Source: a virus
Length of the DNA stretch: 24,426 nt
Virus record (IMG/VR): IMGVR_UViG_3300017763_003342
Span: 1-24,426 of that record
Strand: one strand, 5' to 3'
Positions within the stretch are counted from its first letter, which is position 1, and each line of letters starts with the position of its first letter. The position numbers and the translations under genes are program-made. A model generated the notes under the pieces. It saw nothing but the letters and a program-made list of their open reading frames with translations, had not been told where the DNA came from and ran no database searches. Positions 1 through 22,399 of the stretch are shown one piece after another.

Positions 1-28
1 TATATATAACTAATAGAGAGATAAAAAG

Positions 29-268
29 ATGAAATCATTTAAAGACATTTGGGAAGTTGCAGCTAATTCAGTAGCTGGCTCTGGTGTTTCTCTACCTGCA
101 GATGCAGTAAAAAAGAAGAAAGACGTACAAAGGCGTTATGACGGCAGAACAAAAGAAGGTAAAAAATTCGTAGAAAGAATGATGGCCAAAAGATCTGCTA
201 GATTAGAAAAAGCCAAAAAACTTGAAGCCAAAAGGAACCAAGAAACTATAACAGCAAATAAAGAATAA
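29..268 (+). CDS. Small basic hypothetical phage protein
   Basis: A 79-residue protein very rich in lysine, arginine and glutamate. After about residue 28 it is almost entirely charged and probably forms one helix or coiled coil (VERMMAKRSARLEKAKK region). It has no signal peptide or membrane segment. A purine-rich stretch (gagagataaaaag) just before the ATG can serve as ribosome binding site. It ends 2 bases before the inner-membrane spanin gene, so the two are probably co-transcribed. I do not recognise the family. The composition would fit a nucleic-acid-binding or scaffold-like protein, but nothing specific supports that. Confidence 0.6.
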   Translation: MKSFKDIWEVAANSVAGSGVSLPADAVKKKKDVQRRYDGRTKEGKKFVERMMAKRSARLEKAKKLEAKRNQETITANKE

Positions 269-270
269 TT

Positions 271-663
271 ATGAATAAAATATTGATTGGAATTATAGGC
301 TCTTTAGCCATATCGGGATTTTTATATTATAACCTAGCTGTTGTACCAATGAAAAATAAGTTAGAAGAACAAGCCAAAGTAATATTGGCTCAAGATTTAA
401 GAGATCAAGAACAAAAAGCCACAATCGAGGCTATTCAAGGAAATCTTCAAAAAACCACTCAAGCTCTTTCAGGGCTACAAGTCAGAAATCAAGCATACGA
501 GGCAGAGATGGCTGAATATATGGATATATTTAGACGCCATAACTTATCTAAATTAGCAAGTGCTAAACCTGGTATGATTGAAACAAGAGCAAACGCTAGA
601 ACAAAGGAGGCATTCGATGCGATTGAAGCAGATAGTAAACGTATTAGTTCTCTTAACGATTAG
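271..663 (+). CDS. Putative inner-membrane spanin (Rz-like)
   Basis: A 130-residue protein with an N-terminal hydrophobic anchor (about residues 4-24, ILIGIIGSLAISGFLYYNLA) and then a long charged, glutamine-rich region (about 30-95) predicted by eye to be coiled coil. This is the plan of Rz-type inner-membrane spanins, which span the periplasm and join an outer-membrane lipoprotein to fuse the two membranes in the last step of lysis. The strongest support is context: a lipoprotein gene with its own strong ribosome binding site starts inside the 3' end of this gene (overlap 617-663), the classic nested Rz/Rz1 layout. Family assignment rests on architecture, not on a sequence motif. Confidence 0.65.
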   Translation: MNKILIGIIGSLAISGFLYYNLAVVPMKNKLEEQAKVILAQDLRDQEQKATIEAIQGNLQKTTQALSGLQVRNQAYEAEMAEYMDIFRRHNLSKLASAKPGMIETRANARTKEAFDAIEADSKRISSLND

Positions 664-1117
664 TGGTTGTTCACTACTTCAACAGGCTCCTAGAGAAGTT
701 GAAATAATAACTAAACCAGTTAAAATTGATATTGTTCAGCCAGTAATGCCTAGAGCAATAGATTTAAAAGAACCTAAATGGTATGTAGTTTCAGATACAA
801 AAATAATTGAAAATTGTTTAAAAGATCCTGAAACTAAAAAATCAAACTGTAAATTAGGTAGAGAAGATTTATATCCAGAAGGATACACATATCTTGATAA
901 ATTTATAGATGATATAAAGAAAAAACATGGCGGAGATATTGTATTTGTAGCTATGACGGTTGATGATTATGAGTTAATGTCTTATAATACTCAAGAAATT
1001 AAAAGATATATAAATCAGCTCGGCGAGGTGATAGTTTATTATAGGGATGTGACAATTAATGATGAAGATGCTGGAGCAGTTGAAATTAAAGTGGAGAAAG
1101 AAAATGGCAACAACTAG
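617..1117 (+). CDS. Putative outer-membrane spanin lipoprotein (Rz1-like)
   Basis: A 166-residue protein with a lipoprotein signal peptide and lipobox ending ISGC (Cys18), so it should be exported and lipid-anchored. I start it at 617, not at an ATG 39 bases upstream, because AGGAGG lies at 605-610 with ideal spacing and the signal peptide then begins directly. It overlaps the inner-membrane spanin gene by 47 bases in another frame. The mature part is much longer than classical Rz1 and contains a conserved-looking globular segment (YELMSYNTQEIKRYINQLGE) known to me from marine T4-like phages, plus a Cys pair near residues 66 and 78. It probably partners the upstream protein in outer-membrane disruption. 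It could instead be another phage lipoprotein. Confidence 0.65.
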   Translation: MRLKQIVNVLVLLTISGCSLLQQAPREVEIITKPVKIDIVQPVMPRAIDLKEPKWYVVSDTKIIENCLKDPETKKSNCKLGREDLYPEGYTYLDKFIDDIKKKHGGDIVFVAMTVDDYELMSYNTQEIKRYINQLGEVIVYYRDVTINDEDAGAVEIKVEKENGNN

Positions 1118-1865
1118 AATGAAAGAACAATTGACTGTATGGGAAAGAGGCGTAGTAGCAGCTAAACTCTCAGCAATTGCGTATATGAATCCTAAACCTG
1201 CAGAGACTGCTGGTAAGAAATTAGGATTTGCACAAGTAAAATTAATTAGTAAAGGTGGAGCAGAAGTTCTAATAGCAAAAGATAGAAATGATTTATGGTT
1301 TGCTTTTAGAGGAACGGAACCTTCAAAATTAAATGATGTTTTAGCTGATTTAAAATTAGTTAAACAAGCAGCAGTAGCTGGCGGTAAAGTCCATGGTGGA
1401 TTCCAAGAGGAAGTAAACGATTTATGGATGGATATCTTAAAAGAATTAGAGCATAATGATCAATTAAAAGTAAGAAAAGATGTATACTTTACAGGTCATA
1501 GTTTAGGTGCAGCAATGGCAACTATTAGTGCTACAAGATATAAGCCAGAAGAATTATTTACATTTGGATCACCAAGAGTTGGTGGACCTAAATTTATCAA
1601 GAACATTCATTGTGATCATTACAGATTTATGAATAACAATGATATCGTATGTAGAATCCCGCCAGCATGGTTAGGGTTTAGACATCACGGTGAAATGATT
1701 TACTTTAATAGATTTGGCGAAAAGGCATTAAAGCCAACATGGGCAGATACAATTTATGGTATTGTTAACTCATGGAAAAGATTTAAATTCTTTGACGGAG
1801 TTGTAGATCATGGTATGCCTAATTACGTAAAAGCAATTAAAGTATTAGCCAAAAAAGAGAAATAA
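1104..1865 (+). CDS. Class 3 (fungal-type) lipase, alpha/beta hydrolase
   Basis: A 253-residue alpha/beta hydrolase with all the marks of the class 3 lipase family (PF01764): FRGTE (68-72, oxyanion region), HGGF (97-100), nucleophile elbow GHSLG with Ser133, TFGSPRVGG (153-161), a likely acid Asp180 in NNNDIVCRIPP, and a likely catalytic His236 in VVDHGMPNY. These enzymes cleave ester bonds of acylglycerols or phospholipids. I chose ATG 1104 because GGAG at 1093-1096 precedes it. An upstream ATG at 1059 would add 15 basic residues and extend the overlap with the spanin gene. There is no signal peptide, so it is cytoplasmic until the membrane opens. Lying directly after two spanin genes, it may help dissolve membranes at lysis. 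That role is inference. Confidence 0.88.
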   Translation: MATTRMKEQLTVWERGVVAAKLSAIAYMNPKPAETAGKKLGFAQVKLISKGGAEVLIAKDRNDLWFAFRGTEPSKLNDVLADLKLVKQAAVAGGKVHGGFQEEVNDLWMDILKELEHNDQLKVRKDVYFTGHSLGAAMATISATRYKPEELFTFGSPRVGGPKFIKNIHCDHYRFMNNNDIVCRIPPAWLGFRHHGEMIYFNRFGEKALKPTWADTIYGIVNSWKRFKFFDGVVDHGMPNYVKAIKVLAKKEK

Positions 1866-1866
1866 T

Positions 1867-2196
1867 ATGCATTGGCTAATCATACTATCGTTAAAATCTA
1901 TATTATCATCGATAATTGGTAGTTCGTTTTATCAATGGTTCCAAGGTACAACTATGGGTATCTGGTTCCAAAAACAAGTTGATAGGTTTATGCAGTATTT
2001 TGCTGAACGATACGATCTTGAACTAGCTAAGAAGGATGCAAAATTTAGAAAACAGTATCCTTTAGCCGCAGAGCGACTAGATAAGCTAGAAGGCAATTCT
2101 CATCCATGTAAAGAATTACATGAATTTGATGCTTACCCAGATCTTATCAAGAGAATAGAAGAAATGGAGCGAAGGCTCAAAATAAAAGCAAAATAA
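1867..2196 (+). CDS. Small membrane-anchored conserved phage protein
   Basis: A 109-residue protein with an N-terminal hydrophobic segment (about residues 3-20, WLIILSLKSILSSIIGSS) and then a charged, soluble region containing WFQKQVDRFMQYFAERYDLELAKKDAKF, a pattern I recall from hypothetical proteins of marine T4-like phages. The C-terminus is a short coiled coil (IKRIEEMERRLKIKAK). It starts one base after the lipase stop, so it shares that transcript. It is the last gene before an nrdA promoter. Function is unknown. Position in a lysis-linked block makes a membrane role in lysis possible but unproven. Confidence 0.65.
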   Translation: MHWLIILSLKSILSSIIGSSFYQWFQGTTMGIWFQKQVDRFMQYFAERYDLELAKKDAKFRKQYPLAAERLDKLEGNSHPCKELHEFDAYPDLIKRIEEMERRLKIKAK

Positions 2197-2199
2197 CAT

Positions 2200-2228
2200 T
2201 GTACATTATGCCAAAAGTATGGTATAAT
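2200..2228 (+). promoter_or_regulatory. Sigma70-type promoter P1 (before nrdA)
   Basis: TGTACA at 2200-2205, a 17-base spacer, then extended -10 TGG-TATAAT at 2220-2228. It belongs to a set of four promoters in this window with the same -35-like core, spacer length and extended -10. It probably drives nrdA and the genes after it early or mid infection. Confidence 0.8.
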
Positions 2229-2259
2229 ATAACCTAATAAAATGAACGGAACCAATATA

Positions 2260-4563
2260 ATGTCGATTAAAGTTACAAAGCGTGATGGAACGCTTCAAGA
2301 ATTTGATTTAGATAAAGTACATAAAGTACTCGAATGGGCCGTTGAAGGCATTACTGGGGTCAGTATGTCGGAGATAGAGCTCAGATCAAATATACAACTC
2401 TATGATAAGATACCAGCTTATGACATTCATGAACTTCTTATTAAGAGTGCCTCAGAGCTTATATCAGAGCATACCCCCAATTACCAATTTGTTGCAGCAA
2501 GGCTTATATCATATAAGCTGAGAAAAGAAGTCTATGGGGATTATAAACCATGGCCATTATCTCACTTAATTATAGAAAATATTAGTAGAGAAGTTTATGA
2601 TGGTGCAATTATGGAAAACTATTCTCGTGAAGAAATCGATGAGCTGGATTCATATATAAAGCATGATAGGGATGATACATTTACCTATGCTGGTATGGAA
2701 CAGTTTAGAGGAAAGTATTTAGTACAAGACCGTAGAGATAAAACACACTACGAAACACCTCAAATGCTTTACATGATGGTTTCAGCAACACTGTTCATGA
2801 ATTATCCAAAAGAAAATAGATTAAAATTTGTTAAGGATTATTACGATGCGATTTCTCAATTTTATATTTCACTACCCACTCCAATTATGGCGGGAGTTCG
2901 AACTCCTACTAGGCAATTTAGTTCTTGTGTACTTATTGAGTCAGGAGACAGTCTTGATTCCATTAATGCTACTGCTACTAGCATTGTTAAGTATATAAGT
3001 AAAAAGGCTGGAATAGGGATTGGTGCTGGTTCTATTAGAGCAGCAGGAGCAAAAGTAGGAGATGGATCTGTAGTACATACAGGATTAATACCCTTTTTAA
3101 AATATTTTCAATCAGCAGTTAAGTCATGTTCTCAAGGTGGAGTTCGTGGCGGTGCAGCAACAGTTTATCTTCCAGTATGGCATTACGAATTCGAAGATTT
3201 AATTGTACTTAAAAATAATAAAGGTACAGAAGAAACAAGAGTTCGTCATATGGATTATGCATTTCAATTAAATAAAGTAATGTATGAACGATTATTAGAA
3301 GGTGGTAATATTACATTCTTTGATCCACATGACGTACCAGGATTATATGAATCTTTCTTTGATGACCAAGATAAATTTAAAACATTGTATGAAAAATACG
3401 AAAGAGCTTATTCTATTCGTAAGAAAACTTTACCTGCACTTGAAGTATTTCAAATGCTATTAACTGAAAGAAAAGATACTGGCAGAATTTATATAATGAA
3501 TGTAGATCATGCAAATGATCATGGTGCATTTGATCCGAAAAAAGCTCCAATCAGAATGAGCAATTTATGCTGTGAGATTGATCTACCAACTACTCCATTA
3601 GAATCATATGATGATCATACTGGAGAGATATCTCTTTGTACATTATCTGCAATCAACTGGGGTTTAATAAATGATACTCATGAGTTTGAAAAGTACTGTG
3701 ATCTATCAGTTAGAGCTTTAGACGAATTATTAGATTATCAAAATTATCCTATTGCAGCTGCTGAAAGCGGAACAAAAAATAGAAGACCATTAGGAATAGG
3801 TATTATTAATCTAGCTTATTTCCTCGCTAAAAGAGGTTTAAAATATAACGAAGAATCATTCTCTGTTATAGATGAATATGCTGAAGCGTGGTCATATTAT
3901 TTAATTAAAGCTTCAGCAAATTTAGCTGAAGAAAAAGGCAAAATACCTGCAAATAATGACACAAAATATGCCCGTGGGGAACTGCCAAATGATACATATA
4001 AAAGTGCAATAGATAATCTAATAGGGCATACTGAAAGATTACCGTGGGACGAGCTGAGAACTCAACTTAAAGCCACAGGCATCCGAAATAGTACCCTCAT
4101 GGCATTAATGCCTGCTGAAACAAGTGCACAGATTAGTAATAGTACAAATGGTATTGAACCTCCAAGAGCTTTAGTATCATATAAACAATCCAAAGACGGA
4201 GTTTTAGCTCAAGTCGTACCAGGCTATCACCATCTCAAAAATAAATACGATTTATTATGGGATCAAGAATCACCTGATGGCTATTTAAAAATTTGTGCTA
4301 TATTGCAAAAATACATTGACCAAGGGATATCGGTTAATACATCTTATAATCCAGAAAAGTTTGAGGATAATAAGATTCCAATGTCAGTAATGATTCAGGA
4401 CTTAGTAACTGCATACAAATATGGATTAAAGCAGTTATACTATTTTAATACTTACGATGGTGCTGGAGAAATGCAAGACGACGAACACCACACATATGAT
4501 AGTGGCACAACCGCAACAGTAACAGTTGAAATCGATGACGACTGCGAAAGTTGTAAAATTTAA
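2260..4563 (+). CDS. nrdA: Ribonucleotide reductase class Ia, large subunit
   Basis: Catalytic alpha subunit that reduces ribonucleoside diphosphates to deoxy forms with NrdB. An N-terminal ATP-cone begins VTKRDG. Redox/active-site cysteines are seen in FSSCVLIE, SNLCCEIDLPT (thiyl-radical Cys, catalytic Glu) and EISLCTLSAINWG. LYYFNTYDG carries the radical-transfer tyrosines. The C-terminus has the shuttle pair CESCKI, slightly shorter than the E. coli CESGACKI form. The length (767 residues) is normal and no intron or split is visible. Two starts are possible: ATG 2242, about 7 bases after the expected transcription start, or ATG 2260, which gives the usual MSIKVTKRDG beginning and has a weak GGA upstream. 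I prefer 2260. nrdB follows after 11 bases. Confidence 0.96.
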   Translation: MSIKVTKRDGTLQEFDLDKVHKVLEWAVEGITGVSMSEIELRSNIQLYDKIPAYDIHELLIKSASELISEHTPNYQFVAARLISYKLRKEVYGDYKPWPLSHLIIENISREVYDGAIMENYSREEIDELDSYIKHDRDDTFTYAGMEQFRGKYLVQDRRDKTHYETPQMLYMMVSATLFMNYPKENRLKFVKDYYDAISQFYISLPTPIMAGVRTPTRQFSSCVLIESGDSLDSINATATSIVKYISKKAGIGIGAGSIRAAGAKVGDGSVVHTGLIPFLKYFQSAVKSCSQGGVRGGAATVYLPVWHYEFEDLIVLKNNKGTEETRVRHMDYAFQLNKVMYERLLEGGNITFFDPHDVPGLYESFFDDQDKFKTLYEKYERAYSIRKKTLPALEVFQMLLTERKDTGRIYIMNVDHANDHGAFDPKKAPIRMSNLCCEIDLPTTPLESYDDHTGEISLCTLSAINWGLINDTHEFEKYCDLSVRALDELLDYQNYPIAAAESGTKNRRPLGIGIINLAYFLAKRGLKYNEESFSVIDEYAEAWSYYLIKASANLAEEKGKIPANNDTKYARGELPNDTYKSAIDNLIGHTERLPWDELRTQLKATGIRNSTLMALMPAETSAQISNSTNGIEPPRALVSYKQSKDGVLAQVVPGYHHLKNKYDLLWDQESPDGYLKICAILQKYIDQGISVNTSYNPEKFEDNKIPMSVMIQDLVTAYKYGLKQLYYFNTYDGAGEMQDDEHHTYDSGTTATVTVEIDDDCESCKI

Positions 4564-4574
4564 AAGGAATAATA

Positions 4575-5648
4575 ATGGCGATACTGAAAAAATCTAACAA
4601 ATCTCATCTGCTCAAAAATATGTTTTTAGATGAAGGCGTAGATATTCAAAGGTTTGATTTAGTTAAATACCCACAGCTAGAAAAAATAACAGAAAAACAA
4701 TTAGGATTCTTTTGGAGGCCCGAAGAGGTAGATATTTCAAAAGATAAAAAAGACTTTGATAATCTTACAGAACACGAACAACATATTTTTACATCAAATT
4801 TAAAAAGACAAATCTTACTTGATTCAGTTCAAGGAAGAGCTCCAAACATGGCTTTTTTACCTATAGCATCTTTACCAGAAGTAGAAAACTGGGTAGAAAC
4901 TTGGTCTTTCTTTGAAACAATCCATAGTAGATCATACACTCACATTATACGTAATGTATATCCTGATCCATCGGTTGTATTCGATAATATGTTGGATATA
5001 AAAGAAATTTTAGATTGTGGTAACGATATTGCAAAATACTATGACGATTTAATAGATTGTAATAATTCTGCAACTAACCGTATGGATCATAAAAGAGCAT
5101 TATGGATGTGTATGTTATCAGCAAATGCATTAGAAGGTGTAAGGTTCTATGTATCATTTGCATGTAGTTGGGCATTTGCAGAACTTAAAAAGATGGAAGG
5201 TAATGCTAAGATTATTAAGTTTATCGCAAGGGATGAAAATACACATTTAGCTGGCACAACAACTATACTTAAAAAAATGATAGCAGAAGATAAAGACTTT
5301 GAAAAAATATCTAAAGAAATGGAACCACAGGCAATAGATTTATTTACTAAAGTAATAGAGCAAGAAAAAGAATGGGCACACTATTTATTTAAAGATGGAT
5401 CCATGATAGGATTAAACGAAACGATTTTAAAAGATTACATTGAATGGATTGGTTGTAAAAGAATGAGAGCTCTTAATTTACCATGTCCATACACAGTTCC
5501 AAAATTAAATCCATTACCTTGGACGGAAAAGTGGATAGCTGGAAGCAGTGTTCAAGTTGCACCGCAAGAAACAGAAATAACATCTTATGTGACTGGTGGT
5601 GTAAAACAAGATGTTGACGATAATACATTAAAGGGTTTGAGTTTATGA
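4575..5648 (+). CDS. nrdB: Ribonucleotide reductase class Ia, small subunit
   Basis: A 357-residue diiron-tyrosyl radical subunit, partner of NrdA. All metal ligands expected from the E. coli protein are present: Asp83 (LLDSVQGR), Glu114 and His117 (FFETIHSRSY), Glu187 (NALEGVRF), and Glu221 and His224 (RDENTHLAG). The radical tyrosine is Tyr121. This makes it class Ia, not the tyrosine-less or manganese types. The C-terminal tail (DDNTLKGLSL) resembles the acidic tail that docks NrdB to NrdA. AAGGAA before ATG 4575 serves as ribosome binding site. The stop overlaps the next start (ATGA), indicating translational coupling in an nrdA-nrdB-glutaredoxin operon. Confidence 0.96.
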   Translation: MAILKKSNKSHLLKNMFLDEGVDIQRFDLVKYPQLEKITEKQLGFFWRPEEVDISKDKKDFDNLTEHEQHIFTSNLKRQILLDSVQGRAPNMAFLPIASLPEVENWVETWSFFETIHSRSYTHIIRNVYPDPSVVFDNMLDIKEILDCGNDIAKYYDDLIDCNNSATNRMDHKRALWMCMLSANALEGVRFYVSFACSWAFAELKKMEGNAKIIKFIARDENTHLAGTTTILKKMIAEDKDFEKISKEMEPQAIDLFTKVIEQEKEWAHYLFKDGSMIGLNETILKDYIEWIGCKRMRALNLPCPYTVPKLNPLPWTEKWIAGSSVQVAPQETEITSYVTGGVKQDVDDNTLKGLSL

Positions 5649-6704: not shown

Positions 6705-7049
6705 ATGGGAGAATTAATACAATTCCCTACAGGTGAAATAATCACCAGGGAAAAGACTGAAGAAGAAATCATTAGAGATATTTCGGAAAGCTTAGTAGAA
6801 ATATCACAGCATTTATTTGATATAATTGATGATGAAATAGATGCGATTTCTAAACATGATGTTAATCTATTAGTTGGTATAGATCTCAGAGATGAAACAT
6901 ATAGAGAAAGTCGTGATGCTTTCGTCGTAGTAAATTTACTATATGCCTTATTATCCAGATATGTGGGCATGGAACATTCACTTCATAAGGATCTTGATAG
7001 CCTCTATATTAAAATAAAAGCGATGAATAAAAAAAATGATATTACTTGA
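6705..7049 (+). CDS. Hypothetical phage protein (114 residues)
   Basis: An acidic, probably all-helical protein (KTEEEIIRDISESLVEISQ, then a long DDEIDAISKHDVN segment). It has no signal peptide, membrane segment or known motif. The start at 6705 follows promoter P2 so closely that no SD is possible if transcription starts at the usual distance. It overlaps the RNase H gene by 14 bases, so it probably serves as the leading gene of a replication/repair transcript. I do not recognise the family. Confidence 0.65.
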   Translation: MGELIQFPTGEIITREKTEEEIIRDISESLVEISQHLFDIIDDEIDAISKHDVNLLVGIDLRDETYRESRDAFVVVNLLYALLSRYVGMEHSLHKDLDSLYIKIKAMNKKNDIT

Positions 7050-7905
7050 TTATAGCCAAATTGCACTTTCGAATATTATAGTGCAGAAATTAAACGATGA
7101 ATCTATGATTCGACATATGATTCTAAACAGTATAAGAATGTATAACAAACGTTATAGAGACGAATACGGACAAATGGTAATATGTGCCGACGGTATGAAT
7201 ACCTGGCGTAAAGATTACTATCCATACTACAAAGCAAAACGCAAAAAGAATAGAGAAGCTTCTTCCCAAGATTGGAATGAAATCTTTAGAATATTACATT
7301 TAGTGCGTGACGAAATTAAAGAAAATCTTCCATATAAAGTAGTACACATGGAAGGTGTAGAAGCTGATGATGTAATAGCATCACTAGTTCTACAATCACA
7401 AGAGTTTGGAATGAATGAACCTATGATGATAATATCATCTGATAAGGATTTTATTCAATTACAAAAGTTTAACAATGTTAAACAATTTTCACCTATTCAA
7501 AAGAAATTTGTGAAGGATGAAAATCCTAGAACATATCTTTTTAATCATATAATGAAAGGTGATACAGGGGATGGCATCCCAAATGTTTTATCTGATGATG
7601 ATACATTTGTTTCTGATAAAAAGCAAACGCCATTAAGAAAAACTAGGATAGCTGAATGGTTAGAAAATTCAGATGACTTAAGATCAGTAATGGACGATGA
7701 AATATATCGTAATTATCAAAGGAATAGAACATTAATTGATTTAACAGAAGTCCCAGAAACTATCCAGAAAAACATTATAAATAGTTATAACGAGCAAAAA
7801 GTAGCAATGAAAATGCGAGTTTTAAATTATTTAATTAAAAAAAGATGCAATCTATTGATTGAAGTTGTGGAGGAATTTTATAACAATGAAAAAATTATTG
7901 CCTGA
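7036..7905 (+). CDS. rnh: T4-type RNase H / 5'-3' exonuclease (FEN family)
   Basis: A 289-residue FEN-1/T4 RNase H family nuclease, which removes RNA primers and flaps from lagging strands. Visible metal-binding motifs are Asp5 (LLDYSQ), Asp52 (CADGMNTWR), EADD at 109-112, SSDKDF with Asp136 and Asp138, and KGDTGDGIPN with Asp176 and Asp179. The basic YYPYYKAKRKKNR segment matches the DNA-gripping region. The length is close to T4 Rnh (about 305). The start overlaps the preceding gene by 14 bases. A TATAAATA at 7776-7783 lies inside its 3' end and is probably a chance match. Confidence 0.92.
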   Translation: MILLDYSQIALSNIIVQKLNDESMIRHMILNSIRMYNKRYRDEYGQMVICADGMNTWRKDYYPYYKAKRKKNREASSQDWNEIFRILHLVRDEIKENLPYKVVHMEGVEADDVIASLVLQSQEFGMNEPMMIISSDKDFIQLQKFNNVKQFSPIQKKFVKDENPRTYLFNHIMKGDTGDGIPNVLSDDDTFVSDKKQTPLRKTRIAEWLENSDDLRSVMDDEIYRNYQRNRTLIDLTEVPETIQKNIINSYNEQKVAMKMRVLNYLIKKRCNLLIEVVEEFYNNEKIIA

Positions 7906-16424: not shown

Positions 16425-16889
16425 ATGTTTTTTAATAAAAATAAAGATATTGATGTAGATCAATTAAGAGAACAATTAATAATAGACGAGGGACAAGTAA
16501 ATGAAATATATCATGATCACCTTGGCTATGCTACATTTGGCATTGGACACTTGGTATTGGAAGGAGACCCAGAATTCGGGTTGGCGTTGGGTACTGCAGT
16601 CTCAGAGGATAGAGTTATATCATGCTTCGCCAAGGATGTAGAGACAGTCATTAGTGATTGCAAAAAATTGCATGATGGTTGGGACGGCTACCCACAAGAG
16701 GTTAAACAAGTTGTCGCAAATATGATGTTTAATATGGGACTTACGCGCTTAAGTAAATTTAAAAAACACAACGCAGCGCTGCAATGTGGAGATTGGAAGG
16801 AGGCGGCTGTCGAAGGCCGTGATTCAAAATGGTACAGACAAGTGACGAACAGAGCAGAAAGACTCATGTTGAGACTCGAGGCGATGTAA
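16425..16889 (+). CDS. T4-type lysozyme (endolysin, GH24)
   Basis: A 154-residue muramidase that cuts the glycan strands of peptidoglycan. The catalytic triad has exact T4 spacing: Glu22 (IIDEG), Asp31 (IYHDHLG) and Thr37 (YATFGIGH), with 9 and 6 residue steps as in T4 lysozyme (11, 20, 26). VANMMFNMG and SKWYRQVTNRAERL match the C-lobe. There is no signal peptide, so a holin is needed. It has about 11 extra N-terminal residues compared with T4. The gene body (about 16500-16880) is clearly richer in G+C than its flanks, suggesting separate history or codon selection. Confidence 0.94.
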   Translation: MFFNKNKDIDVDQLREQLIIDEGQVNEIYHDHLGYATFGIGHLVLEGDPEFGLALGTAVSEDRVISCFAKDVETVISDCKKLHDGWDGYPQEVKQVVANMMFNMGLTRLSKFKKHNAALQCGDWKEAAVEGRDSKWYRQVTNRAERLMLRLEAM

Positions 16890-17636: not shown

Positions 17637-17933
17637 ATGGATGAAGTGTTTAAGTTGATTGCTGATGTAGGAGCACCTATAGCCGGATCAATCATCATGG
17701 GCGTTTTTATATTTATTGTTATAAAGCAAATCCTTGCTGGTATAATAGACCAAATAAAGACTCTCACGATGTTTTGCCAATCTTTGGAGAATAGAGCGAG
17801 AACAATGAGCAACGAAATCATAAAAATCGACTTATTAGTATCTAGTGCATTAGATTTACCACCAGATATTGATAGAATAGCTCGTGCAGAAAACTTTATC
17901 GAAGATGGTAAACTTGATGTGAGAAGAGATTAA
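17637..17933 (+). CDS. Small membrane protein, holin candidate 1
   Basis: A 98-residue protein with a short periplasm-or-cytoplasm start (MDEVFKLIADVGAPIAGS), one membrane helix (about 12-30) and a helical cytoplasmic-type tail (DQIKTLTMFCQSLENRARTM) ending in charged residues. N-terminal pattern and size match the following gene, suggesting a tandem duplication. Single-helix proteins with coiled-coil tails of this kind act as holins in some phages (BhlA/UviB type), and lysozyme lies 750 bases upstream. The holin role is inference. There is no SD, consistent with a leaderless mRNA from the late box. Confidence 0.68.
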   Translation: MDEVFKLIADVGAPIAGSIIMGVFIFIVIKQILAGIIDQIKTLTMFCQSLENRARTMSNEIIKIDLLVSSALDLPPDIDRIARAENFIEDGKLDVRRD

Positions 17934-18205
17934 TGGACATTGGACAATTAGTATCAGATTATGGATTTCCAGCAGTTATGGCTGTAGGAATGGGTTATTT
18001 TATTTGGTATATTTGGCACTTTATTAATACGGTGATTGAGCCTGAGCTAGAAAAAATGCACATGGCTTTAATTAGAGTAATAGATCAAACAAGGATGTTA
18101 GATCAAGATATGATAAGATTACAGCAAAAAGTAAATGTAGTTTTAAGGTATAAAGAAAATGCAAAGAAGAAGCGAGGAAAAAGAAATGAAAAGCAAAATA
18201 ATTAA
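17933..18205 (+). CDS. Small membrane protein, holin candidate 2 (BhlA-like plan)
   Basis: A 90-residue protein: short N-terminus (MDIGQLVSDYGFP), one membrane helix rich in Gly, Trp and Tyr (about 12-32), a coiled-coil stretch (about 38-75, LDQDMIRLQQKVNVVL) and a very basic end (KENAKKKRGKRNEK). This order is that of BhlA/UviB-type holins. It overlaps the previous gene by one base and csgF by 20 bases, so translation of the curli genes follows directly from it. Holin activity is not proven by sequence, and the pair might instead anchor something else in the inner membrane. Confidence 0.68.
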   Translation: MDIGQLVSDYGFPAVMAVGMGYFIWYIWHFINTVIEPELEKMHMALIRVIDQTRMLDQDMIRLQQKVNVVLRYKENAKKKRGKRNEKQNN

Positions 18206-18713
18206 TTTTATATTTATTTTTACGCTATTATTAATAGCAACACCATCATCACAAGCTGATGAATTAGTACATAAATTTAAAAGTCCTTCCTTTAGTGGTA
18301 TAGGGACTTCATCACACTATTTAACTATAGAAAACCAAGAATTCTCACGTAAAAAAGCAATTGCTGATGATATTGAAGCTGCTTTATTACAAGCTGAGCG
18401 AGATGCAGAAAACACAACTCTAGCTAAATTTATGAGAAACCTAGAAAGCAGGATATATGCTCAACTTAGTAAACAGTTGGTAGAAAGTTTATTTTCTACT
18501 TGCGATATTACCGACCCAGCATGTCAACAATCAAGCTTTGGTAGTTTTGTATTAGAAGGTAATACTATTACTTACCAAAGAACAACTTGTGATGCATCAA
18601 TATATGCATGTGTACAAGATGAAGAAGTTATAATTATGACAATTACCGCAGAAGATGGATCTGAAACTACGATAGTTATTCCTATAGGAGCTGGAAGTGC
18701 TGGAACAGGCTAA
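18186..18713 (+). CDS. csgF: Curli assembly protein CsgF-like
   Basis: A 175-residue exported protein: signal peptide (about 1-24, ending SSQA), then ELVHKFKSPSFSGIG. This aligns with the N-terminus of E. coli CsgF (TFQFRNPNFGG), the part that plugs into the CsgG pore. The middle is helical (AALLQAERDAENTTLAKFM), and the C-terminus VIIMTITAEDGSETTIVI mirrors the CsgF end. It is longer than E. coli CsgF and has two cysteine pairs (106/113, 135/142) that E. coli CsgF lacks. GAGGA before ATG 18186 fixes the start. It overlaps csgG by 17 bases. Role: couples the CsgG channel to fibre nucleation outside the cell. Confidence 0.85.
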   Translation: MKSKIINFIFIFTLLLIATPSSQADELVHKFKSPSFSGIGTSSHYLTIENQEFSRKKAIADDIEAALLQAERDAENTTLAKFMRNLESRIYAQLSKQLVESLFSTCDITDPACQQSSFGSFVLEGNTITYQRTTCDASIYACVQDEEVIIMTITAEDGSETTIVIPIGAGSAGTG

Positions 18714-19590
18714 AAAAGCAATATCACTATTATCAGTAATAGTACTAACAAGTTGTGCTGGGATGCCTAGTATGACTGATAGCTGTAAAGATAGCTTAAT
18801 GGAATATTATGGCGAATGTAGAGAAAAGCCAATAGTAGTTCACTTACCAACACATAAGGAATTATTAGAATTACCAGCACCAGAAAAACAACCTGTGGTG
18901 GCAGTATATAATTTTCCAGATTTAACAGGACAAAGAAAACAAAAAGGAGATTCAGCTTTATTTTCAACAGCCGTTTCACAAGGAGCATCTACTATGTTAA
19001 TAGATGCTTTAAAAACTGCTGGTGGTGGAAGCTGGTTTAGAGTTGTCGAAAGAGTAGGTCTGGATCATTTAACTAGAGAAAGACAAATAGTTAGAACAAC
19101 TAGAGAACAATATGGCGAAGAGGACGAAACAGGATTAGCTCCTTTACTTTTCGCTGGAATCATTCTTGAGGGAGGTGTCATTGGATTTGATACTAACATC
19201 GAGACTGGGGGTGCAGGAGCACGATATCTTGGAGTAGGAACTTCGCGAGCCTATAGAAGAGATATAGTTACTGTACATTTAAGAGCCGTTAGCACATTGA
19301 CGGGTGAAGTTTTACTTAATGTGCAAACATCAAAAACCATTTTGGCTGTCGCTAATGGATATGATGTTTTTAAATTCGTCGATATGAGTACTCAGCTTGT
19401 AGAAATAGAAGATGGGATAACTGAAAATGAATCCGTGACACGGTCACTTCGATCAACAATTGAAGCAGCTGTGTTGGAACTAATATACCAGGGTCATGAC
19501 AGAGACTTTTGGGAAATAAAAGCAGGACATCGTCACCCTCATCAGGATGATGGGAATAACGATAAACACGCTTTAAACGAGGAAAACTAA
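18697..19590 (+). CDS. csgG: Curli secretion channel CsgG-like lipoprotein
   Basis: A 297-residue outer-membrane lipoprotein that in bacteria forms a nonameric curli export pore. It starts with GTG 18697, preceded by AGGAG at 18686-18690, and has lipobox VLTSC (Cys20). CsgG signatures are clear: VVAVYNFPDLTGQ (67-79), FSTAVSQGASTMLIDAL (89-105), ILEGGVIGFDTN (157-167), GGAGARYLGVG (171-181), VTVHLRAVSTLTGEVL (191-206), TSKTI, and HDRDFWEI near the end. The pore-constriction loop keeps the Phe (89) but not the Asn and Tyr of E. coli. A Cys pair (30/41) is extra. The 3' half is richer in G+C than the 5' half. Confidence 0.95.
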   Translation: MLEQAKKAISLLSVIVLTSCAGMPSMTDSCKDSLMEYYGECREKPIVVHLPTHKELLELPAPEKQPVVAVYNFPDLTGQRKQKGDSALFSTAVSQGASTMLIDALKTAGGGSWFRVVERVGLDHLTRERQIVRTTREQYGEEDETGLAPLLFAGIILEGGVIGFDTNIETGGAGARYLGVGTSRAYRRDIVTVHLRAVSTLTGEVLLNVQTSKTILAVANGYDVFKFVDMSTQLVEIEDGITENESVTRSLRSTIEAAVLELIYQGHDRDFWEIKAGHRHPHQDDGNNDKHALNEEN

Positions 19591-20319
19591 ATGAAAATGT
19601 TAAATAGATATATCGCATTTGCAATTTTGTTATGCCCTATAGTTGCTTTTGCCGGCACTAATGACAACAAGATCTTACTCGACCAGAGTGGAGATACACT
19701 AAACTTAACTATTGACCAAGTAGGTTATGGTAATAAGTTATGTGGATCTATTTCTAGTGGCGATTGTGCTACTGATTGGGTCTTGACTGGTAACACTGTG
19801 ACTATGGACATTGATATGCTAGGTAATTTAAACCAAATCTTCGGACCAACCTTATTTGATAATACTGACGTTGACTTAAAGTTAACAGGTAATAGCAATA
19901 TTTGGGATTGGAACGTAGGATATGGTGGAAGTGCTGATGCTTCAGTCGTTGATGTAGCAGTAACTGGAAACTCAAATACATTCGATATAGATTGGGGCTA
20001 CGCAGCTTCAGCTGAAAGATTGGATTTTGATCTAGATATTACTGGTGGATCTAACGTCTGGGATATCAATATTGATGCTGATGACGTTACATGGAATGTT
20101 GACGTAGTTGGATCTTCAAATAATTTTATGACAGCACAAACAGATGGTTCTGATCAATCTCTAACTATGGAGTGGATTGGAAGTAGTGGTGATATTGATA
20201 TCACTCAATCATCTGGCACATGCCCAACAGGTATAACAAGCTGTTATGGAGTAATTAATGCAGAATTCGATACTGAAAACGCTGTGGTTAATATCGTCCA
20301 AAAAGATACTACTGACTAG
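19591..20319 (+). CDS. Secreted curlin-repeat-like protein 1 (Asp/Asn-rich)
   Basis: A 242-residue exported protein: signal peptide (about 1-21, ending VAFA), then about seven degenerate curlin-like strand-turn-strand units centred on G45 (LNLTIDQVGYGN), G78, G100 (LKLTGNSN), G126 (VAVTGNSN), G152, G174 and G197, spaced 22-33 residues apart. Each has alternating hydrophobic residues before a G-x-x-N turn. The Gln ladder of CsgA is largely replaced by Asp and Asn, making it very acidic. Cys pairs at 51/59 and 211/218 bracket short loops. GAGGA precedes the ATG. It follows csgG at once, so it is the probable substrate of that pore. Confidence 0.72.
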   Translation: MKMLNRYIAFAILLCPIVAFAGTNDNKILLDQSGDTLNLTIDQVGYGNKLCGSISSGDCATDWVLTGNTVTMDIDMLGNLNQIFGPTLFDNTDVDLKLTGNSNIWDWNVGYGGSADASVVDVAVTGNSNTFDIDWGYAASAERLDFDLDITGGSNVWDINIDADDVTWNVDVVGSSNNFMTAQTDGSDQSLTMEWIGSSGDIDITQSSGTCPTGITSCYGVINAEFDTENAVVNIVQKDTTD

Positions 20320-21421
20320 TTTATTAGTTAGTACGTTTTCTTTTGCAGATGATATAGGCGGTATAGAAGAACATAAGGGCAGTGGTGGTATAACACGCTC
20401 AGGCGAAAATATTACCACTGAACTTGGTTTAGCTATACAGCAAATGGATCATGTAGAAACAGCTAAAGGCCGTATGCTACTAAAGTTCTTAGACGATTCA
20501 GTTGTTCGTTTAACTGAACACACTGAAGTAACGCTTACTGAATATTACTACGATCCTAATAAAAAGGCTGATGCTAATATGACTATGAAATTCGTGGCTG
20601 GTACAGCGCGATTTTCAACTGGAAGATTAGGTTTAGTACCAAAAGAAAATATAAAAATAGAAACTCCAACTGCCACTATAGCGGTTAGAGGTACAGATTT
20701 CACAACCTCGGTTGATGAATTGGGAAGAAGCTTAGTTATACTTCTACCTGAAACTGAATGTACAATTGACGGTGACTGTTCTCCAAGTGGTGAAATAACG
20801 GTTACTAACGAAGGAGGTGTTGTTACACTTAGTGAAGCTTATCAAGCAACGATGGTTTCAAGTTTTAACACAATTCCAAGTCAACCAGTTGTATTAGATA
20901 ATATTAACTTAAATATGATAGACAATATGTTTATCGTGAGTCCACCAAATGAAATTGAAGAAAAACAAGATGAAGGAAGTAATGGAACTGGGAATGCTGA
21001 TAACAATATTCTGGATTTTACTGATCTCGATACAGACTACCTAGCTGATGATTTTTTAGCTGAGGATAATCTAGAGTTTAATGAACTCGATATGGATTTA
21101 TTAGATGTCGACTTTCTACAAGACATATTGGTGGCATTGGAAAAAGTAAGTATCTTTAATCGTAGATCAGCACTAGATAGTTCATCAGGCGATATACAAG
21201 GAACTTTAGCCCCAGGGTTCGATAAAGATACACAATATAATACTATAATTGACCAAGGGGCTGGTCAAATATGGTTCTATAGAGAAGTAAACGGAGTAAT
21301 TTCTGTTAAAATACCTATAGGAACTAATTTAACTTTGGATACAGAAAATGAAGGTAGAAAAAATAACATTATTGTTGGCGATGGCCAGTCTGTTATTATC
21401 ATCATTCGTCAAGGCGGATAA
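20258..21421 (+). CDS. Secreted FecR-domain protein
   Basis: A 387-residue exported protein: signal peptide (about 1-30, ending FSFA), a FecR domain (about 55-165) with LLKFLDDSVVRLTEHTEV, FVAGTARFSTGRLG and the hallmark ETPTATIAVRGTDFT. Then a linker with a Cys pair (168/174) and an acidic, Leu/Asp/Phe-repeat segment (about 248-290, LDFTDLDTDYLADDFLAED). There is no inner-membrane helix or sigma-factor-binding N-terminus, so it is not a classical anti-sigma FecR. It begins 62 bases inside the curlin 1 gene, with GGAG before ATG 20258. FecR domains of this free periplasmic type are, to my recollection, often encoded beside CHASE2 cyclases, as here. Confidence 0.85.
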   Translation: MQNSILKTLWLISSKKILLTSLLVSTFSFADDIGGIEEHKGSGGITRSGENITTELGLAIQQMDHVETAKGRMLLKFLDDSVVRLTEHTEVTLTEYYYDPNKKADANMTMKFVAGTARFSTGRLGLVPKENIKIETPTATIAVRGTDFTTSVDELGRSLVILLPETECTIDGDCSPSGEITVTNEGGVVTLSEAYQATMVSSFNTIPSQPVVLDNINLNMIDNMFIVSPPNEIEEKQDEGSNGTGNADNNILDFTDLDTDYLADDFLAEDNLEFNELDMDLLDVDFLQDILVALEKVSIFNRRSALDSSSGDIQGTLAPGFDKDTQYNTIIDQGAGQIWFYREVNGVISVKIPIGTNLTLDTENEGRKNNIIVGDGQSVIIIIRQGG

Positions 21422-22061
21422 TTTAATAGAATTAAAAAATGTTGAATCTAATGATTTAGATCTTACTATAGAACAGGTAGGAGCTAATAATACTATACAG
21501 TGCTATCAAGATAATTGGTGCTATATAAAGGATAGTGTTACTATAGATTTTAAACAAGTAAATACATCCACTGCAACAAATGTTTTAGAAATTTGGCATG
21601 TAGAAGATGGTAATAATACTATACGATGGGGTCAAGGTGTTTCACTCAATAATAAGAATTCTACAACATGGGTATATGATGGAACTGAAGGCGGTGGTCA
21701 TTACGCTAGAATAGATGTACATGGCGGTGGTAATAATTTTATAGGATATCAGCAAAATGCTGGTGATACTACTGGACACATTTTTACATCTCTTATTTTT
21801 AGTGATAATAATGACATATGGGTTAGACAAAAAAATAATGGTCGTAAAGAATTAAACCTATACACAACATCAGATGGTAATACTATAGATGTTTTGCAAA
21901 AAACAAACGGTGGTGAACATACTGCTAATATAGCTTTACATGGTTCACAACCAACAACTTTAAATTTAATACAACAAGGACAAACTGATCAATCATATTC
22001 TATTACACAAAATTGTGTAACGGTTGGTGGTTGTTCTATCAGTGTAACACAGGGTAATTAA
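21348..22061 (+). CDS. Secreted curlin-repeat protein 2 (Gln-bearing)
   Basis: A 237-residue exported protein: signal peptide (about 1-23, ending FVKA), then six or seven curlin-like units such as LDLTIEQVGANNTI, LEIWHVEDGNNTIRWGQ, ARIDVHGGGNNFIGYQQ, SLIFSDNNDIWVRQK and LNLYTTSDGNTIDVLQK, then a Gln-rich end (LNLIQQGQTDQSYSITQ). The (hydrophobic)-x-G-x-N-x-I-x-x-x-Q layout is closer to CsgA/CsgB than the first curlin, with Gln kept at the strand end. Cys pairs at 52/58 and 223/229. The signal peptide is encoded inside the 3' end of the FecR gene (74-base overlap). It may be the nucleator or a co-subunit. Confidence 0.78.
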   Translation: MKVEKITLLLAMASLLLSSFVKADNLIELKNVESNDLDLTIEQVGANNTIQCYQDNWCYIKDSVTIDFKQVNTSTATNVLEIWHVEDGNNTIRWGQGVSLNNKNSTTWVYDGTEGGGHYARIDVHGGGNNFIGYQQNAGDTTGHIFTSLIFSDNNDIWVRQKNNGRKELNLYTTSDGNTIDVLQKTNGGEHTANIALHGSQPTTLNLIQQGQTDQSYSITQNCVTVGGCSISVTQGN

Positions 22062-22062
22062 T

Positions 22063-22323
22063 ATGGAATGTCCAGAAGATCTTATATGTTTTACTGAAGA
22101 AGAGTGGACAAATTTTTTAACTGAATATGAACTCGATATTGTAAATGAGGTTGGCACACCAACTTCTACAAGTGATGCGGAAGCGGCAATAAACTTTACA
22201 TGGGAAATTTTATTTCTCTCGCCATGGGAATTAGCTTACATAGCTTTACCTATGAGCGTTTTAGCGTTTTACGGGCTCACAATATATGCAATATTCAAAT
22301 GGCTTCAGAAAAAATTTAACTAA
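22063..22323 (+). CDS. Small C-terminally anchored membrane protein
   Basis: An 86-residue protein with an acidic soluble N-terminus holding a Cys pair (MECPEDLICF, Cys3 and Cys9), and one membrane segment near the end (about 55-78, WELAYIALPMSVLAFYGLTIYAIF) followed by a basic tail (KWLQKKFN). The basic tail suggests the C-terminus is cytoplasmic and the N-terminus periplasmic, like the other Cys-pair proteins of this block. It starts one base after curlin 2 stops. No family is recognised. It could link the fibre machinery to the cyclase, but that is only inferred from position. Confidence 0.6.
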   Translation: MECPEDLICFTEEEWTNFLTEYELDIVNEVGTPTSTSDAEAAINFTWEILFLSPWELAYIALPMSVLAFYGLTIYAIFKWLQKKFN

Positions 22324-22399
22324 TTTAAAATATTATATAAGAAGAAAATACGGCTATCCTAATCAGAAAAAAGGATTATTAATAGATATATACGCATGA
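22286..22399 (+). CDS. Possible 37-residue basic protein bridging to the cyclase gene
   Basis: A short frame beginning MQYSNGFRKNLTNLKYYIRR and ending KKGLLIDIYA. It overlaps the preceding gene by 38 bases and the cyclase start by ATGA. The otherwise noncoding 72-base gap is fully covered by it, and the residues (KYYIRRKYGYPNQKK) look protein-like. There is no clear SD, so it could be a leader peptide whose translation is coupled to the cyclase, or a chance frame. Confidence 0.4.
   Translation: MQYSNGFRKNLTNLKYYIRRKYGYPNQKKGLLIDIYA

Follow-up and report, generated by a model that had tools for sequence, protein, structure and literature searches.

A class 3 lipase gene beside a spanin pair in marine T4-like phages, and its alternation with DUF1353 proteins

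The spanin-lipase locus

The IMG/VR virus record IMGVR_UViG_3300017763_003342, analysed over its full 24,426 bases (the window), contains the T4-like genes nrdA, phoH and lysozyme, identified by search, and nrdB, recognised by eye. At its left end lie, in order, genes for an inner-membrane spanin (i-spanin), a lipoprotein spanin (o-spanin), a class 3 lipase, an open reading frame (ORF) named orfE, and nrdA (2242-4563), and the genes from the spanins to orfE form a close-packed run on one strand (Table 1). An original prediction, made from the window alone, assigned this lipase to the lysis block; here we examine the lipase, its neighbours and its relatives.

Table 1. Positions of the spanin, lipase and associated features in the window (aa, amino acids; nt, nucleotides)
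Feature	Position	Strand	Basis and remarks
i-spanin, 130 aa, N-terminal membrane anchor and soluble remainder	271..663	+	phrog_739 Rz-like spanin, E 2.8e-7
o-spanin lipoprotein, 166 aa, lipobox ISGC	617..1117	+	phrog_812 Rz-like spanin, E 1.5e-10
Class 3 lipase, 253 aa, triad Ser133-Asp180-His236	1104..1865	+	Lipase_3, E 7.4e-21; overlaps o-spanin by 14 nt (1104-1117)
orfE, 109 aa, hydrophobic N-terminus	1867..2196	+	conserved behind the lipase; no PHROG match at 0.001
sigma-70-like site containing TATAAT, upstream of nrdA; probable boundary of the spanin-lipase-orfE unit	2200..2228	+	consensus scan
T4-type lysozyme, candidate endolysin	16425..16889	+	Phage_lysozyme, E 3.5e-6; phrog_7 endolysin, 7.2e-11; 15 kb from the spanins

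The predicted anchor of the i-spanin reaches a hydropathy of 1.76 over 19 residues, and a feature scan found the same kind of anchored ORF in relatives having room upstream. ATG 617, preceded by AGGAGG, is the start of the o-spanin, whose frame differs from that of the i-spanin. Judged by profile, lipobox and membrane anchor, the two genes are a real two-component spanin pair, as originally predicted. The o-spanin gene had also been described as nested in the i-spanin gene, but it shares only 47 of its 501 nt with that gene and runs 454 nt further, so the architecture is 'overlapped', the commonest of three (228 of 528 two-component pairs; PMC6139136).

Sequence, predicted fold and selection of the lipase

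The lipase matches Pfam Lipase_3 (PF01764) with 74.9 bits against a cut-off of 22, and the ORF read from position 1059 matches the PHROG esterase/lipase family at 1.8e-23. We place the start at ATG 1104 rather than at 1059, because in 14 of 79 lipase loci (10 distinct) one or two codons separate an upstream stop from the ATG matching 1104, and because TGGAG precedes this ATG; the predicted overlap with the lipoprotein spanin gene holds with this start. Ser133, in the GxSxG elbow (GHSLG), Asp180 and His236 stand at the residue numbers originally given and are invariant in 56 distinct sequences of the lipase's own clade (window included) and in P-SSM2; the window protein is a complete class 3 lipase. 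A Pfam scan to E 1 returned Lipase_3, two general hydrolase models and one aldolase model for the window lipase, and no cutinase or LysB model.

A structural model of the lipase, built from 30 sequences, has a mean predicted local distance difference test score (pLDDT) of 71.6, with values below 50 at residues 72-99, 184-193 and 229-239, the last stretch including His236. The predicted fold is an alpha/beta hydrolase of the fungal lipase type. Specifically, the model aligns with fungal lipase 3tgl (Z 14.5, root-mean-square deviation (rmsd) 3.6, 203 aligned), feruloyl esterase 1uwc (Z 14.5, rmsd 3.5, 194 aligned) and plant phospholipase A1 2yij (Z 12.6, rmsd 3.7, 198 aligned), the last of which does not set the substrate, and Foldseek matches it to 6qpr at E 1.4e-7.

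In 80 comparisons of lipase genes with that of the window, one of them saturated, the ratio of nonsynonymous to synonymous divergence (dN/dS) has a median of 0.098, a value that is rough given a median dS of 1.22; by this measure the lipase is under purifying selection. Such selection, together with the conserved gene order described below, argues that the gene is real beyond chance.

The highest 19-residue hydropathy of the lipase is 1.06, so it has no strongly hydrophobic segment, and the first 60 residues of the 56 sequences do not exceed 1.22. This bears on the idea that the enzyme modifies the envelope during infection, for example by removing acyl or acetyl groups from a surface lipid and so blocking superinfection. 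According to a review, a lipase or esterase could modify O-antigen (PMC10975011), but the protein has no strongly hydrophobic segment for export, it is placed with the spanins, and such an activity of class 3 lipases was not encountered in the material examined. We regard envelope modification as very improbable.

Gene order and transcription units among relatives

We compiled a lipase sample (the best 80 of 136 viral-contig relatives) and an o-spanin sample (the best 80 of 101 confirmed relatives), which come largely from the same contigs; the gene-order counts overstate independence, since related phages share synteny by descent. Among the 80 lipase loci, the o-spanin is found in 79, the i-spanin in 74, and both orfE and nrdA in all 80, and the loci without a spanin match start within about 200 bases of the lipase. 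Seen from the o-spanin, the lipase lies directly behind in 70 loci (at most 184 nt between matches), is absent from nine (L264-L272, in our locus numbering) and is cut off in one (L250), and orfE is present in the same 70. Spanin-lipase synteny, which the original prediction proposed to check in other marine phages, thus holds for 70 of the 79 o-spanin relatives that are informative; the lipase accompanies the spanins often but not always.

Three loci were confirmed in one genome scan. L273 (Rhodobacteraceae) and L274 (Gammaproteobacteria) stand in bins of different classes, and we take both for phage contigs; the third, L275, is a distant lipase from the genome of a Pelagibius.

All 54 distinct regions before nrdA have TATAAT within 110 nt of the gene, but only 1 of 52 before the lipase has it; for the i-spanin the count is 1 of 46, for orfE it is 3 of 55, and for nrdB 18 of 48. 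The box before nrdA is a consensus match, and its distribution suggests that the lipase belongs with the spanins and that nrdA begins a unit of its own. A general promoter scan of positions 1-4700 gave 13 promoter-like sites, fewer than in shuffled sequences (mean 22.5). We also considered a late promoter. Of the 44 distinct loci with room for it, 42 have TATAAATA, the T4 late consensus, at a distance of 1 to 5.6 kb before the lipase. These uncontrolled occurrences are given no weight.

The neighbourhood of nrdA admits a metabolic explanation, in which the lipase frees fatty acids from host lipid for energy or membrane needs and adjoins the spanins since both precede nucleotide genes. The lipase is indeed upstream of nrdA, with orfE between, in every one of the 80 loci, and the relative in P-SSM2 lies a few genes before gp61 and nrdA. 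However, the promoter-like box in all 54 regions before nrdA, set against 1 of 52 before the lipase, weakens an operon of the two genes; in addition, the lipase alternates with a phospholipase A2 (PLA2) family protein beside the spanins (next section), and losing membrane lipid in mid-infection would presumably be costly. We consider auxiliary metabolism unlikely, and the earlier suggestion of a fatty-acid supply to a nutrient-poor host gains no support.

DUF1353 proteins in the lipase position of sister phages

In a phage collection, seven records carry an o-spanin relative, namely four Methylophilales phage Melnitz strains and three Sinorhizobium phages. The Melnitz spanins (L087, 6592-6984, phrog_739, and 6920-7327, phrog_812) are followed by a DUF1353 gene, not by a lipase, and the order i-spanin, o-spanin, DUF1353 in Melnitz, L116 and L171 corresponds to the lipase slot of the window. 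DUF1353 also adjoins spanin-like genes in HTVC008M. The HTVC008M spanins (L092, 4619-5152) look interrupted, with an i-spanin-like ORF of 75 aa, a lipoprotein of 46 aa and a stop inside the phrog_812 match; in its relative L095 the ORFs at this position measure 149 and 118 aa.

We fetched 80 of the 97 DUF1353 loci found, 78 of them with a complete gene, and scanned their neighbourhoods with spanin profiles iterated on these loci. Both spanins lie within 1.5 kb of DUF1353 in 63 of the 78 complete loci, 54 behind the enzyme and nine before it; of the other 15, 12 end within 1 kb behind the gene and three have a recognised o-spanin only.

The DUF1353 proteins of L093, L116, L171 and Melnitz match PF07087 with 50.3 to 52.7 bits against a cut-off of 22.5, and 64 distinct sequences of the pelagimyophage type share, without exception, the catalytic-type residues His124, Asp125 and Asp158. 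Asp158 would equal D85 of TtaP, as we infer from its D-x-x-F context; the spacing is longer here. TtaP, a DUF1353 protein of the typhoid toxin islet, is an assayed PLA2, and its authors consider the same activity likely in other DUF1353 proteins and mention a similarity to prophage DUF1353 proteins (PMC11525133). A model of the phage protein (mean pLDDT 76.7), compared with known structures in view of the three-helix PLA2 core fold, gave a best Foldseek E of 0.14 and a best VIA-align Z of 2.8, neither to a PLA2, so the PLA2 assignment rests on PMC11525133 and the conserved residues.

The N-terminal stretch of DUF1353 is strongly hydrophobic in 78 of 78 sequences, which bears on a further alternative: that the window enzyme acts after lysis, dissolving vesicles and receptor-bearing fragments that trap virions, and gives no help in lysis itself. 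The lipase would be a soluble enzyme set free at lysis, and a hydrolase of Bacillus phage NIT1, likewise released at lysis, clears extracellular polymer, as told in PMC12173070. The hydrophobic N-termini of its DUF1353 counterparts do not fit a released enzyme, and we think debris clearing improbable.

The neighbourhood of DUF1353 was also read in 11 other phage records of our own choice, partly taken from a 37-record list. In seven of them (Carin1, Fnu1, phiRTG5, ChrisDB, FNU_1P, Cygsa01 and DMCA), a gene near DUF1353 is annotated as an amidase, endolysin, holin, peptidoglycan-domain protein or M15 peptidase, and in Cygsa01 a GDSL lipase is also close, with one gene between. The stretches of Arash, PCH45, Bakedbeans and GX15bay show no annotated wall-lysis gene near DUF1353, the neighbours being mostly hypothetical. 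DUF1353 is labelled 'tail assembly chaperone' in PHROGs (phrog_1158) and in several records, including NC_020484 gp144; this label is probably misleading, because the family has a proven PLA2 member and lysis neighbours.

Many pelagimyophage contigs carry, between DUF1353 and the spanins, a gene of 52-53 aa that has a long hydrophobic part; it is seen in L100 (4604-4762) and, in similar form, in L104, L108, L119, L123, L131, L136 and L157. Two of them that were searched gave no PHROG match at 0.01, nor did a similar 56-aa gene of L171. We regard the 52-53-aa gene as a holin candidate.

Alternation of the two enzymes

Lipase and DUF1353 occur together in 0 of 50 records, comprising 25 lipase contigs and 22 DUF1353 contigs (the longest from the 80 loci of each kind, HTVC008M being among the 22), Melnitz, P-SSM2 and the cyanophage fragment AG-345-O18; Melnitz has DUF1353 only, and P-SSM2 and AG-345-O18 have the lipase only. 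Most contigs are fragments, so this exclusion is suggestive.

An o-spanin tree was built from 56 representatives of 147 sequences (76 from the lipase side, 62 from the DUF1353 side and nine from neither) and rooted at its midpoint; it leaves out rows with no recognised lipobox or of fewer than 90 aa, the other loci of the o-spanin sample, and HTVC008M. Lipase rows adjoin L116, L171 and Melnitz-type rows, L116 and L171 being long-branched, and lipase-free rows stand inside the lipase clade. Several joining rows are long-branched, and P-SSM2 carries the lipase; we read no direction of exchange between lipase and DUF1353 from this midpoint-rooted tree.

In a comparison of L184-L192, the major capsid proteins of five lipase-clade contigs are 71-95 percent identical to one another and only 60-66 percent identical to those of HTVC008M, another DUF1353 contig, Melnitz and P-SSM2. 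By these capsid identities, the lipase-clade contigs are a separate marine T4-like group.

Lysozyme genes beside lipase-free spanins

Among the nine o-spanin relatives that have no lipase, a T4-type lysozyme gene stands directly before the spanins in L264, L265 and L267-L270 (the copy of L269 being cut by the contig start), and these lysozymes are 53-59 percent identical to that of the window. The contig of L266 begins behind the lysozyme position, the lysozyme of L271 lies about 1.4 kb before the spanins, and in L272 a fragment stands at the contig start. Since a lysozyme directly precedes the spanins in six of the seven loci L264-L270, the spanin pair can be regarded as a lysis module.

A proposed role in lysis

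Gram-negative lysis proceeds by opening of the inner membrane (holins), cutting of the wall (endolysins) and membrane fusion (spanins); to our knowledge, the textbook scheme includes no lipid-degrading enzyme. At the locus described here, a real, conserved and selected lipase stands beside a real spanin pair. We propose that this lipase is an accessory lysis enzyme that would hydrolyse membrane phospholipid, and put the probability of this reading, in which gene order, protein families, catalytic residues and the alternation with DUF1353 are observed and substrate, timing, membrane route and lysis role are inferred, at about 55 percent. It gains weight from the alternation of the lipase with DUF1353, a family with one proven PLA2 member. 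Also in its favour are the position of the lipase behind the o-spanin in most relatives, the promoter-like box that sets nrdA apart, the spanins and annotated lysis genes near DUF1353, and a plant phospholipase A1 among the fold matches.

In the proposed mechanism, the lipase would be a cytoplasmic product of the spanin-lipase-orfE unit, its translation probably coupled to that of the o-spanin, and its activity would be of a phospholipase A1 or lysophospholipase kind. It would reach lipids once a holin lesion opens the inner membrane. The lysozyme would then cut the peptidoglycan, the spanins would fuse the two membranes, and the lipase would weaken or dissolve the membrane remnants and so free the virions. 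In sister phages, a membrane-anchored DUF1353 PLA2 may play the same role.

Several observations weigh against this proposal. The best fold matches of the lipase are fungal triglyceride lipases and a feruloyl esterase, and the Lipase_3 family spans triglyceride lipases, feruloyl esterases and phospholipases. No signal peptide was seen on the lipase, so access to lipid would depend on a holin. The candidate endolysin of the window is 15 kb from the spanin-lipase block, and neither Lipase_3 nor DUF1353 is found on the contigs of L264-L272, nine fragments of 2 to 34 kb. A search of the DUF1353 profile against PDB sequences returned nothing at E 10, and the DUF1353 model gave no PDB match. Furthermore, deletion of ttaP changed no envelope trait tested (PMC11525133), and phage KIRK has DUF1353 among head and tail genes, according to a table in PMC7924643.

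The lipase and the spanins also occur apart, which weighs on the same side. In P-SSM2 and AG-345-O18 the lipase lies near phrog_407, phrog_451 and gp61, in P-SSM2 also near nrdA, and neither has a phrog_812 o-spanin (phrog_739 was not searched across their genomes, which may hold other spanin types). Likewise, the fetched stretches of seven lipase records outside the clade, of 12 such records found, show neither the window nor the Melnitz spanins. The annotations of P-SSM2, SCTP-2, XacN1 and CrV, the four annotated records among the seven, name no lysis gene beside the lipase, and in Salicola phage SCTP-2 the lipase and an o-spanin relative are 63 kb apart. Sinorhizobium phages phiN3 and Phosso have neither lipase nor DUF1353 near their o-spanin relative. 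An independent movement of lipase and spanins, which would speak against the original prediction, is thus borne out in part: the lipase tracks the spanins within its clade but occurs away from them in the seven records outside it.

These separations are what would be expected if the region from phrog_407-type genes to nrdA were a plastic slot that collects cargo, with the lipase and DUF1353 as unrelated passengers adjoining the spanins by chance; the nine spanin relatives that have no lipase fit this equally. It accounts less well for two unrelated lipolytic families that alternate and do not co-occur in the 50 records examined, for the lysis genes near DUF1353 in seven of the 11 records read, and for purifying selection on the lipase, and we consider such a plastic slot unlikely. 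For phospholipid digestion at lysis, as originally suggested, the alternation with DUF1353 and the lysis-module character of the spanins speak in favour, and the lipases found away from these spanins outside the clade speak against.

More tentatively, and as a possibility rather than an expectation, marine T4-like phages might keep a standing position in the lysis block for a lipid hydrolase, occupied by one or the other of two unrelated families, class 3 lipase and DUF1353 PLA2. If so, Gram-negative lysis would regularly include the enzymatic breakdown of phospholipid as a fourth activity, next to those of holin, endolysin and spanin, and the lipase of cyanophages such as P-SSM2, which lack this spanin family, might replace the spanins at the outer membrane.

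A conserved, spanin-tied lipolytic gene that alternates with a family that includes one proven PLA2 makes membrane-lipid digestion by phages directly testable. It also puts a phage-lysis origin of the DUF1353 phospholipases up for testing; their founding member is encoded in a toxin islet, together with a muramidase that toxin release requires. If true, the proposal would bear on the fate of membrane lipid when marine bacteria lyse.

Other genes of the window and its relatives

At 17637-19590 the window carries a tandem pair of small genes with a hydrophobic segment (phrog_18771), followed by csgF and csgG. Two phrog_18771 matches shortly before csgG occur in 12 of 20 records searched, namely nine lipase-clade contigs, HTVC008M, the contig of L121 and Melnitz. 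One window copy weakly matches the holin family phrog_4898 (0.0019), and in L100 a phrog_18771 member lies directly behind the o-spanin; on these two grounds the phrog_18771 genes are a holin candidate and might tie the curli pore to lysis.

Behind csgG (19591-24228) lie genes for two secreted-looking proteins that match nothing in Pfam significantly, for a protein with a FecR domain and for a membrane protein of the CHASE2-nucleotide cyclase kind, a set unusual for a phage. Curlin genes are missing in related phages (PMC7029224, PMC9004378), and the two secreted-looking proteins might be cargo. A curlin-like motif in 19591-20319 and 21348-22061 did not exceed shuffled sequences, 22 and 5.7 percent of which reach its count.

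Proteins of phrog_451 precede the primase gene in Melnitz (L087, 7936-8391), in L271 (3135-3674) and in two cyanophages (L082, 7508-7801; L085, 7858-8229). The Melnitz protein also belongs to DUF7201, a coiled-coil family, and that of HTVC008M has weak haemolysin-family matches.

Comparison with known systems

Among open-licence PMC papers, we found none that describes a class 3 lipase or a DUF1353 protein beside spanins, and none that describes the alternation of the two. The main text of the pelagimyophage paper (PMC7029224) does not contain the words spanin, holin, lysis or lipase, and the Melnitz paper (PMC9004378) has spanin a single time, with reference to lambda, and never mentions lipase. 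Lipolytic genes as such are known from lysis cassettes for Gram-negative hosts; the part for which we found no published counterpart is the tie of a class 3 lipase to spanins, or its alternation with DUF1353.

The pair itself resembles Rz/Rz1-type two-component spanins (PMC6139136), with an N-anchored i-spanin and an out-of-frame lipoprotein o-spanin overlapping the i-spanin end, here phrog_739 and phrog_812; it differs in that a lipase follows the pair and the candidate endolysin is far away. The LysB proteins of mycobacteriophages are mycolylarabinogalactan esterases that finish lysis at the outer lipid layer. The likeness to the window protein would be that of an esterase finishing lysis at an outer lipid layer, whereas LysB belongs to another family, serves against mycolate hosts, and the window protein matches Lipase_3.

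That a lipase in a Gram-negative lysis block is little described, as the original prediction had it, is too strong, because two precedents exist. A GDSL lipase lies in the lysis cassette of a Pseudomonas syringae phage, and its active site is needed for killing by a chimera (PMC12173070). Like the window enzyme, it is a serine lipase beside lysis genes in a phage of a Gram-negative host; it differs in its GDSL family, in a predicted carbohydrate-binding module and in its place upstream of holin and endolysin, and the word spanin is absent from that paper. A patatin-like phospholipase A2 is part of a proposed lytic cassette of phage WO (PMC9203015), and is thus likewise a phospholipase proposed for lysis of a Gram-negative host. 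In contrast to the window lipase, it is of the patatin family and a stand-in for an endolysin, in a host whose peptidoglycan is undetected and in a phage in which the standard endolysin-holin-spanin set is absent.

The DUF1353 PLA2 proteins (TtaP, PMC11525133, and its phage relatives) are a lipolytic family found near lysis genes and, in sister phages, in the spanin-adjacent slot; they have a His/Asp dyad instead of a Ser-Asp-His triad, and the pelagimyophage forms have a hydrophobic N-terminal anchor. Closest in family is PHROG 21992, the esterase/lipase of P-SSM2-like cyanophages, which shares the triad and lies near phrog_407, phrog_451, gp61 and nrdA. The window lipase is about 28 percent identical to the P-SSM2 protein and, unlike it, is encoded beside a phrog_812 spanin.

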